A stretch of DNA of 64,000 bases from a virus. Under the pieces are notes generated by a model. It searched no databases. It was not told the DNA's origin and saw only the letters and a program-made list of their open reading frames with translations. The stretch lies in IMG/VR virus record IMGVR_UViG_3300013093_000001, positions 1 to 64,000 of that record; one strand, 5' to 3'. A program made the position numbers and the translations under genes. This document shows, in pieces, positions 57,879 to 63,844 of this stretch (the stretch's first letter is position 1; each line of letters opens with the position of its first letter).

Positions 57879-58736
57879 CTAGCTGACCTTCCTGGTCGGC
57901 GCTGCTCGCTTAGCTGGCGCTTTCTTAGGCGCAGCCTTCTTAGCTGGTGTCTTACCAGCCGGATGCCGCTTGACGGACGCTTCCAGCTGCGCCATCAAGT
58001 CGGACACGTCGTCGTCGCGCTGGTCCAGATCAACGACGCTGGTCAACACGCCACCCTTAGCTTTCGTGTCAATCAACGCCGCGACCTGCGCGGTGTAGGT
58101 GTCAACGAAGTTGGCGGGACTAAAGTCCTCAATCATGCTGTCAACGACTGCGTGCGCCATTTCCAGCATTTTGGGTGACTCAATGGTCCCGTTTAAATGC
58201 TGCAAACCATTAGCGTCACGGATTTCGTCCAGCCAAATCAGGGTGTGCATGACCAACACGTTGCCAAGGACGCGGATGACAGCCATTTGCTGTCGTGTTC
58301 GCAACACAAACTTTGCGACCGCAACAACATCTGACTCCACCATGACCCGACGCAACAGCGCGTAACCTTGAGAGCTGTTGTCTGTGGGTTCCAAAAAGTA
58401 ACTGGACTCCCACATAATCGGGTCAATCTCGTCACTGTGACAAAACTGGACCACCTCAATGGCCGACAACTTATTGGCTTCCTGCAACTGCGCCAGGTCG
58501 TCATCGGTAATAACGACAATCTTGTCGTCATCAACCAGCTTGCCTTTAATGACTTCGTCAGACCGTGGGTTGACGCCACACTTCTTACACACGCGGGGCT
58601 GACCAATCGCACCCTCGCAACCTGCATGGAACAGGTTAAACGAGATGTCATGGCTGTCCGTTGCCTTGTAGAGTTTGACACCCACATTCACTAAACCGAA
58701 GTTCAGTGACGTGTTTTTCACTGATCTCATACCCAT
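57879..58736 (-). CDS. ku: Ku-like DNA end-binding protein
   Basis: This 285-residue protein matches bacterial and phage Ku: 'LNFGLVNVGVKLYKATDSHD', 'ISFNLFHAGCEGAIGQPRV', 'CHSDEIDPIMWESSYFLEP' and 'VVAVAKFVLRTRQQMAVIRV'. The C-terminus is a Lys/Ala/Pro-rich tail ('AKKAAPKKAPAKRAAP') for DNA binding. It would recruit host LigD for end joining, as described for phages Omega and Corndog. ATG 58736 follows GGAGGAAAA and has its own promoter. Confidence 0.9.
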   Translation of the reverse strand: MGMRSVKNTSLNFGLVNVGVKLYKATDSHDISFNLFHAGCEGAIGQPRVCKKCGVNPRSDEVIKGKLVDDDKIVVITDDDLAQLQEANKLSAIEVVQFCHSDEIDPIMWESSYFLEPTDNSSQGYALLRRVMVESDVVAVAKFVLRTRQQMAVIRVLGNVLVMHTLIWLDEIRDANGLQHLNGTIESPKMLEMAHAVVDSMIEDFSPANFVDTYTAQVAALIDTKAKGGVLTSVVDLDQRDDDVSDLMAQLEASVKRHPAGKTPAKKAAPKKAPAKRAAPTRKVS

Positions 58737-58776
58737 GTTTTCCTCCTCCACGGCGACCCTTTGCCACCGCTTATTT

Positions 58777-62740: not shown

Positions 62741-63271
62741 TCACGCCGCAAATGCGTCGTACCACACCTTCCGCTTGTCACCACAGCAAGGGCCATAAAA
62801 CCACCCACGCCTATTAACTCTAAGCCGGTGCGCTGTCACGTTACCGTGACAGTAGAAGCAATGCGGGACCAGCTTACCGTCAGCTATCGTAAACTCTAGC
62901 TGCTGCCTCGGCTTATTGTTCCAGCCAACAAAGAACCTAAAAATTCTCAGGTGACTGGTATGACGCATCAAATGCAATGACCTTGCTAGCCTCGCTAACC
63001 GCAGCAGGGCTAAACCACCACCTGCCACGGGCAGTAACGCTGCCACAATGACACAAGCATCAAACACGTTCCAAAAAGACCGGAAGAAAAGCCTGGTAAA
63101 CGCGACACGAAGAGCCAGTTCACACGCAAAGAACAGCAAAACAGCGTTGTCCAGCCGCTCAAGTAATTCAGCGTTCGTGTCATCTACAAGGCTCCACGCC
63201 ACCAGACCAAGGTTGGTTAGAATTGCGACCATCACTACCCGGTCTAGCGGGGAAGACCTGTTGTGCGACAT
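62741..63271 (-). CDS. Voltage-sensor-like membrane protein with zinc C-terminus
   Basis: This 176-residue protein has four membrane segments: 'VVMVAILTNLGLVAWSLV', 'NAVLLFFACELALRVAF', 'FWNVFDACVIVAALLP' and an S4-like 'LLRLARLARSLHLMR' with Arg at every third position. This is the layout of an ion-channel voltage-sensor domain without a pore. The last 60 residues form a cytoplasmic zinc-type domain ('HCFYCHGN', 'GPCCGDKRKVWY'). Role unknown: membrane-potential sensing, or depolarisation. AGGAGGAGG in the leader. Confidence 0.75.
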   Translation of the reverse strand: MSHNRSSPLDRVVMVAILTNLGLVAWSLVDDTNAELLERLDNAVLLFFACELALRVAFTRLFFRSFWNVFDACVIVAALLPVAGGGLALLRLARLARSLHLMRHTSHLRIFRFFVGWNNKPRQQLEFTIADGKLVPHCFYCHGNVTAHRLRVNRRGWFYGPCCGDKRKVWYDAFAA

Positions 63272-63327
63272 TTCTCATAAACCTCCTCCTAACATCCCCG
63301 ACCCTGTGTCGGGGAAATCTGTGTGGG
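63272..63327 (-). promoter_or_regulatory. Leader hairpin of the voltage-sensor-like gene
   Basis: CCCCGAC-CCTGT-GTCGGGG lies upstream of the ribosome site, like the short hairpin of the intergenic elements but without the long stem; the tandem cassettes take its place. Confidence 0.5.
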
Positions 63328-63444
63328 GAGGCGGCGGCGCAGGTACTGCGCCCGAGCCATGTAACCGGGCAAGGCAATCCTTGCTTCCATTGCCACCAAA
63401 AATGAATGAAAACGGTGGGATGGTGAGTTTAACGCCGCCGCCTC
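63328..63444. ncRNA. Structured RNA candidate, copy 1
   Basis: Outer stem GAGGCGGCGGCG/CGCCGCCGCCTC (12 bp) encloses an inner stem GCCCG/CGGGC and a stem CCACC/GGTGG. Its first 18 bases inside the stem and last 16 bases are identical to copy 2, but the interior differs. Strand unknown. Confidence 0.5.
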
Positions 63445-63477
63445 AAGCCTCAAAAAGTTTGTGTGGAAAGGTGGTGG

Positions 63478-63598
63478 GGGGGCGGCGGCGCAGGTACTAC
63501 ACGCCCCGTAGTAAAAGGGCGCTTATTGGTAGTCCTTACTTTCCAATTTCCCACCAGCAAGGAACGAGAAATTGGTTGAGCTTAACGCCGCCGCCTCC
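63478..63598. ncRNA. Structured RNA candidate, copy 2
   Basis: Outer stem of 12-13 bp with one G.T pair, inner stem CGCCC/GGGCG and stem CCAATTTC/GAAATTGG, in the same order and spacing as copy 1. Inner stems differ in sequence but keep pairing. Confidence 0.5.
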
Positions 63599-63601
63599 AG
63601 C

Positions 63602-63844
63602 CTATGCTGACCGCCGTGAAGCGGCCATCGTTCGTACCTTGCTGACCACCCAGCGGGTGAATTTTACAAGATAACGAACTGCTGTGACCAAGAACCACGC
63701 GAGGCAAGCGAAAATCAGCAGTTCAGACAACTTGCGATTCTTTCGCATAACGCTCAGTATCACTTCTCCAGCGATTAGCTGGACCGCGTTACTGCTCAGG
63801 TGCTTCGTCAGTTCTTCAAACTGGTTTGGTCGTTCAAGCAACAC
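63602..63844 (-). CDS. Small membrane protein
   Basis: This 80-residue GTG-start protein has one membrane helix ('LLIFACLAWFLVTAVRYLV') and basic flanks ('VSKVRTMAASRRSA'). GAGGAAAG precedes GTG. It is encoded just before the tandem RNA cassettes and the voltage-sensor-like gene. Confidence 0.62.
   Translation of the reverse strand: MLLERPNQFEELTKHLSSNAVQLIAGEVILSVMRKNRKLSELLIFACLAWFLVTAVRYLVKFTRWVVSKVRTMAASRRSA

Follow-up and report, generated by a model that had tools for sequence, protein, structure and literature searches.

Two cassettes at the end of the window

The window, meaning the whole stretch of 64,000 nucleotides analyzed here, covers the opening 64 kb of a virus record of 113,905 bases whose terminase, among the named phages compared, is nearest to those of Mycobacterium phages such as Nadezda, Typha, and Bipper (54 to 57% identity). 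Gene calls were made with our own codon-usage scoring script. A Ku gene was found in the window at 57879-58751 (minus strand) by Pfam/PHROG profile search, an open reading frame (ORF) at positions 110666-111595 of the record (minus strand) resembles by eye an ATP-dependent DNA ligase, and ARAGORN detected no tRNA or tmRNA gene in the window. Many minus-strand genes of the record (for instance, near 71240 and 57747) are preceded by a recurrent leader hairpin, GTCGAACCTGGCCGGGG(T/C)ACGAG..GGCAAA..; 14 of the 23 minus-strand matches of this motif have a ribosome site and a start codon within 75 nt.

Two adjacent cassettes, with identical ends and unlike interiors, together span 63328-63598. On the plus strand, the 18-base left end GGCGGCGGCGCAGGTACT is located at 63330-63347 and 63481-63498 and nowhere else in the record, and the 16-base right end at 63429-63444 and 63582-63597; these ends enclose interiors of 81 and 83 bases, exactly as an earlier, sequence-only reading of this DNA had reported. 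The 12-bp outer stem described in that reading is exact in the first unit and has one mismatch in the second, and its inner stems can be paired as it proposed, but the conserved structure is better described by a junction on the minus strand. Read on that strand, unit U2 (63478-63598, scoring 56.4 bits with the covariance model R2 described below) consists of the 5' strand of stem P1 (63598-63586), UUAA (63585-63582), the P2 hairpin, AAGGA (63537-63533), P3, GUACCUG (63497-63491), and P1' (63490-63478). After a 33-nt spacer (63445-63477), unit U1 (63328-63444, minus strand, 52.7 bits) repeats this arrangement, with P1 at 63444-63433, UUAA at 63432-63429, then P2, AAGGA at 63382-63378, P3, GUACCUG at 63346-63340, and P1' at 63339-63328. 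The pieces common to both units are CG followed by UUAA, AAGGA, and GUACCUG followed by CG; their core reads GGA-YNNN...NNNR-U(A)CC with covarying NNN positions, and the P2 hairpin differs between them. For both units and both strands, the fold energy is better than that of all 200 dinucleotide shuffles, with z scores of -4.9 and -5.5 for the minus strand and -4.0 and -4.0 for the plus strand.

Upstream of U2 lies an 80-codon ORF (63602-63844, minus strand) that has a weak coding score and no above-threshold match to Pfam or PHROG; P1 of U2 follows the end of its stop codon at a distance of 3 nt, which is the usual stop-to-element geometry of the family. The gene downstream of U1 (62741-63271, minus strand) starts 56 nt after P1' and encodes a 176-residue protein matching PF00520 (Ion_trans; E value of 4.9e-13). 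This match involves only the first part of the profile, that is, sensor-like helices and, judged by profile coverage, no pore part; the protein has no relative in IMG/VR or in the named-phage collection, and its conservation is thus unusable. A core scan located a third copy, U3, at about 68897-68705 of the record, approximately 5 kb beyond U1 and U2 and outside the window, with different arms (P1 is GCGACG/CGUCGC, and P3 also differs). The likeness of U1 and U2 is far above chance, as the third copy in the same phage and dozens of relatives keep the core.

Relatives in phages and actinobacterial genomes

A related phage whose terminase is 72% identical carries a fourth copy, and a phage with a 36-tRNA array carries two more. 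Covariance model R1, trained on U1, U2, and L115 only, recovered members absent from its training set, namely, L116 (40.9 bits), U3 (30.6 bits), and L237 (51.5 bits). Pattern scans of IMG/VR gave 95 stretches with none passing the descriptor at first; a looser pattern followed, for which only L115, L116, and L166 were recognized as members among the matches listed, and a relaxed pattern returned 96 stretches, about 40 of which keep P1 and P3, with the remainder taken as chance. The pattern scan of genomes yielded 56 stretches, and the 8 that pass the descriptor are all in Actinomycetota. Microbacterium enclense NIO-1002, Mycolicibacterium rhodesiae JS60, and Mycetocola miduiensis are cultured hosts with the element. 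A ninth genome member (L336, the same place as L437) was regained at 46.7 bits by model R2, built from 42 members (alignment A4). When the class-mates of Microbacterium enclense were scanned with R2, 11 of 394 actinobacterial genomes matched, a number that includes the seed genome, a chance match in coding sequence (L447), and a doubtful one (L446); 0 of 299 genomes matched in the phylum of an Acidovorax and 0 of 299 in that of an Oscillospiraceae genome, in scans that had no positive control and scored few candidates per genome.

A sample meant to escape the motif filter was assembled from 52 relatives of the MuF-type head protein that adjoins member L265. R2 matches 25 of these 52 loci, 24 at no less than 39 bits (one of which, L449, is a training record again) and one at 24.4 bits that was read as chance. 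In total, the pattern, protein-anchored, and covariance-model searches brought together 82 matches, which lie in 81 loci from phages and from actinobacterial genomes. Alignment A7 comprises these 82 matches; L447, L490 (24.4 bits), L468 (identical to L467), and L312 were dropped or read as chance, and the doubtful L446 and L332 were retained. The reversed-sequence control gave 102 forward matches and none in reversed sequence, in loci that were preselected by pattern and include repeats of one place. When single elements were compared with phages by blastn, either no match was obtained or the matches were short and fell in coding genes. R2 finds one copy in most of the 44 member records and two in each of G000 and G011.

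Presence varies between related phages. The MuF relatives L451 and L452 are without an element at the place where L453 to L455 and L458 have one, and among named phages with related head genes (SV1, REQ3, Jace, Picard, GMA1, and TinyDot) there is one weak match, in Jace at 18.7 bits, which we read as a chance match in coding sequence. Only Bipper matches among 13 further named phages, weakly (20.4 and 16.2 bits). Its better match (Mycobacterium phage Bipper, KU728633.1, 72828-72965, 20.4 bits) overlaps annotated gene 124 and has a 14-bp P1, UCAA, and an A.C first pair of P2 but no bulged A, and is a candidate divergent member. Thus, 17 of the 19 named phage records have no match at the thresholds used, Jace and Bipper having weak ones only, and the function is therefore dispensable or replaceable.

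Consensus structure and covariation

The alignments show that the element is a three-way junction. Its consensus runs from P1 (variable, 8 to about 18 bp) through U(C/U)AA, the P2 hairpin, A, AGG(A/C)(C/U)NNY, and CAYGA into a variable arm and returns through AG, NN(G/A)(U/G), a bulged A, CCU, and G to P1'. P3 is formed by AGG(A/C)(C/U)NN pairing with NN(G/A)(U/G)-A-CCU around the conserved bulged A and is capped by the CAYGA/AG internal loop. P2 is variable in length, and its first pair is C-G in 53 of 82 members, A.C in 19 of 82, and in a few G-C, G.U, or A-U. In part of the family, a CUUUC in P3 was noticed by eye, a possible anti-Shine-Dalgarno loop.

Pairing is kept in 94.4% of the alignment cells in A4 (42 members) and in 94.0% in A7 (82 members), with both sides changed in 182 cells versus 55 in shuffles for A4 and in 369 versus 100 for A7; slid controls of A7 are only 28.9 to 48.2% paired. 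P1 and P3 pairing helped to select many members, so that their pairing percentages are biased, and cleaner evidence comes from P2, whose pairing was never a filter, and from the MuF-anchored set. The second pair of P2 in A7 is GC in 50 members, CG in 25, AU in 5, and UA in 1, with a single break in 82. Both-side changes occur at 17 of 21 pairs in A7 and at 15 of 21 in the 24 distinct MuF-adjoining rows (one of these being the doubtful L490, 24.4 bits), and the enclosing P1 covaries in 7 of its 8 modeled pairs in A7. Most MuF-anchored matches have the variant core AAGG-C-U ... A-G-ACCUG, in which C-G and U-A stand in place of the A-U and C-G pairs seen in the motif-selected members; this is a compensatory change inside the core that had previously been used as a fixed motif. 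Accordingly, core pair 68-137 of A7 is AU in 56 members, CG in 21, GU in 2, and GC in 1, and core pair 69-136 is CG in 64, UA in 17, and UG in 1. At the junction, C10-G75 and U10-A75 are weakly associated (Fisher P = 0.011, from post hoc counts made by eye on related sequences). Covariation in A7 requires no pairing of the nested double-pseudoknot (hepatitis delta virus [HDV]-like) type.

At A7 columns 77-130, in front of the CAYGA loop, 38 of 82 members have a U.G pair and none has A-C, and G.U exceeds A-C in A7 overall (89 versus 54). This pair and the orientation with the upstream gene (74 of 81 loci) fix the minus strand of the window as the RNA strand, one of the two strands that the sequence-only reading had considered; both kinds of evidence oppose its other option, free small RNAs from the plus strand. 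We regard the element as almost certainly a real conserved RNA. A MITE-like repeat, also raised in that reading, does not account for unlike stems that are kept by compensatory change across unrelated phages in a fixed orientation to genes, and we rejected a transposed repeat, as the conserved bases are internal and P1 changes freely with compensation. Relatives lacking the element do exist, as that reading had envisaged for a transposed element, but no insertion borders are definable, and at the MuF-clade loci, where the empty sites could not be aligned exactly, no target duplications were seen.

Placement behind stop codons

The upstream neighbor lies on the strand of the element in 74 of 81 cases (50 of 57 without the MuF clade), and by a within-25-nt criterion its stop codon stands 1 to 21 nt before P1 in 42 of these 74, whereas none of the 7 opposite-strand upstream neighbors comes that close. 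The downstream distance is broad, from 4 to 910 nt. The downstream neighbor is on the other strand in 21 of 79 cases, with 11 of these 21 genes ending within 25 nt of P1'; a same-strand downstream start lies within 35 nt of P1' in 13 of 58, mostly 20 to 24 nt after it. With the element removed, the median residual gap is 220 nt (n = 68 of 82, those with both neighbors called and no overlapping call), compared with 14 nt for 714 other gaps of the same loci, and gaps longer than 100 nt make up 72% at elements versus 21% elsewhere in these loci. A T-rich stretch (5 or more T among the 8 nt that follow P1') comes after 1 of 82 elements, and a U-tract hairpin within 150 nt downstream was found for 1 of 79; an intrinsic terminator was ruled out on account of the former count.

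The genes around the elements, upstream and downstream, are unrelated among loci. By eye, we take the upstream genes to encode a major capsid protein (L246), MuF proteins (L258 and L265), DUF397 proteins (L268 and L316), VWA-type proteins (L253 and L270), a head-tail protein (L328), and, at other loci, small proteins of unknown type. The 722-residue MuF-type protein of L258 has a long insertion relative to that of L265 that resembles an intein by eye. In the MuF clade, the element is followed on its own strand by genes of the late operon, scaffold and capsid genes among them. Six members are located in or beside tRNA genes: the elements of L116, L277, and L166 are at arrays of 36, 20, and 18 tRNAs, and those of L287, L293, and L302 adjoin tRNAs. 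The L116 record (98,878 bases) has its 36 predicted tRNA genes inside 14 kb.

Novelty and possible function

A search of the window with Rfam 15 gave no match at the gathering cutoff, the best score in the element region being 17.8 bits, far below the cutoff, and at nine loci with well-conserved members no match to the element was found even at E values of up to 5. In the open-access PMC literature, the scope of this comparison, no motif was recognized as this junction. These results and the strong covariation bear out the suggestion of the sequence-only reading that the cassettes are a new structured RNA. What we claim as new is the RNA family; its function may prove to be of a known kind. 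The family is backed by covariation, has an almost invariant junction, and is shared by many actinomycetotal phages and prophages. Its position, where translated sequence gives way to untranslated, bears on the long-standing question of how long late operons, tRNA arrays, and inserted reverse genes are transcribed. The model also serves annotators, who at present leave this stretch empty or, in one phage, have called a gene that overlaps it.

Tentatively, and with somewhat less than even confidence in the statement as a whole, we propose that U1 and U2 are copies of a phage-borne structured RNA family with an antitermination-type role in cis. The element would act on the RNA as it is being made, where the ribosomes come off it, most likely by altering the elongating RNA polymerase or by shielding the transcript, so that transcription would not be stopped (for example, by Rho) over the untranslated stretch; such a role would be put-like with a different fold. 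Antitermination is favored because a single copy is usual, a U-tract is lacking (1 of 82), tRNA arrays or reverse genes follow, and, in the MuF clade, the late genes run on past the element without a change of strand. Against it, at least 13 elements stand no more than 35 nt from the next same-strand start with no long untranslated stretch, and a place after stop codons and between convergent genes suits terminators, 3'-end stabilizers, and ribozymes too. As the mechanism, antitermination is doubtful, with a probability of perhaps one third. The HK022 put RNA, two stem-loops (V-shaped) downstream of the early promoters of that phage, shows that antitermination by RNA alone is possible (PMC9378689). 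Like put, a phage RNA of about 70 nt, the element is phage borne and would act in cis on its transcript, and we noticed no protein family that accompanies it. Unlike put, which has no enclosing stem, it is a three-way junction enclosed by a covarying P1, and it follows stop codons in actinobacterial phages, whereas put follows early promoters, a place that counts against a put-like reading.

The place of the element suits a 3'-end module or a self-cleaving RNA nearly as well as it suits antitermination. In the former case, which we consider unlikely, the fold would serve as a noncanonical terminator or exonuclease block that marks or protects the mRNA or tRNA upstream at its 3' end, and the next gene would have its own promoter in the long gap. 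The tight spacing behind the stop codon, the reverse-strand downstream neighbors (11 of 21 ending within 25 nt of P1'), the long residual gaps, and a very stable P1 are all consistent with this. Flavivirus-type exonuclease-resistant RNAs, three-way junctions just past a stop codon and sometimes in tandem, resemble the element in layout; they have no sequence relation to the element, for which no pseudoknot is shown. However, transcripts need many ends and most records have one copy, scaffold, capsid, and other late genes of the MuF clade lie beyond the element on its strand, the U-tract is missing, and a simple block would not require so nearly invariant a junction. A regulatory leader (a riboswitch or protein-binding leader) for the downstream gene seems improbable. 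The short distance to the next start in 13 of 58 cases and the position of the tandem copies before an ion-channel-like gene would suit it, and the sequence-only reading had likened them to a tandem riboswitch in the leader of a membrane-sensor gene; yet, members are mostly single, are anchored to the upstream stop codon, and precede unrelated genes at widely varying distances, or opposite-strand genes in 21 of 79 cases. Unrelated neighbors argue against a gene-specific riboswitch. Integron attC sites are structured inverted-repeat sites with a variable interior just past the stop codon of small genes, and a comparable DNA-level role, as a folded single-strand site of recombination or of a mobile element, could be imagined from the place just 3' of small variable genes and from the presence and absence between related phages. 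It is extremely unlikely: read from the opposite strand, the U.G pair of 38 of the 82 members would become C.A, the conserved core is enclosed by a variable P1 and is not terminal, and copies are mostly single with no repeat borders found.

A new self-cleaving or other catalytic RNA, which would separate mRNAs and trim tRNA 3' ends, is quite unlikely in our judgment. It would explain a compact conserved core with variable arms that is tied to no gene, oriented with the upstream gene, and sometimes near tRNAs; the element matches no Rfam ribozyme, however, and its invariant nucleotides could just as well be a binding site for a protein or ligand. Theta ribozymes of Caudoviricetes offer an analogy of use with an unrelated fold: they are HDV-like RNAs reported from phages of Bacteroidota and Bacillota, sense to neighboring genes and often beside tRNA genes (PMC10879173). 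The element may share this placement and orientation, but the nested double pseudoknot of HDV-like ribozymes is not established for it, and its hosts are Actinomycetota. That the family represents a new functional class of RNA, either a protein-independent reprogrammer of polymerase over untranslated DNA or a self-cleaving fold behind stop codons and tRNAs, is somewhat less likely than not.

Other structured sequences at the loci examined

Two further structures were noticed at the loci sampled. Right after the stop codon of the long MuF ORF, a conserved hairpin GAACGCGGC...GCCGCGTTC occurs in L454, L458, L464, L480, L498, L451, and L452, and it stands 82 to 83 nt before the element where one is present. 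A second structured leader consists of an 11- to 16-bp hairpin with the loop GGCCCUGCAC and, 14 to 21 nt further on, GCAGGG, which in many cases lies within a second hairpin's loop; the two probably form a kissing loop, immediately before the ribosome site of the late gene that follows. This leader is found in 21 places (L451 to L455, L457 to L460, L462 to L466, L480, L481, L493, L497, L280, L305, and L315), also where the three-way-junction element is absent.
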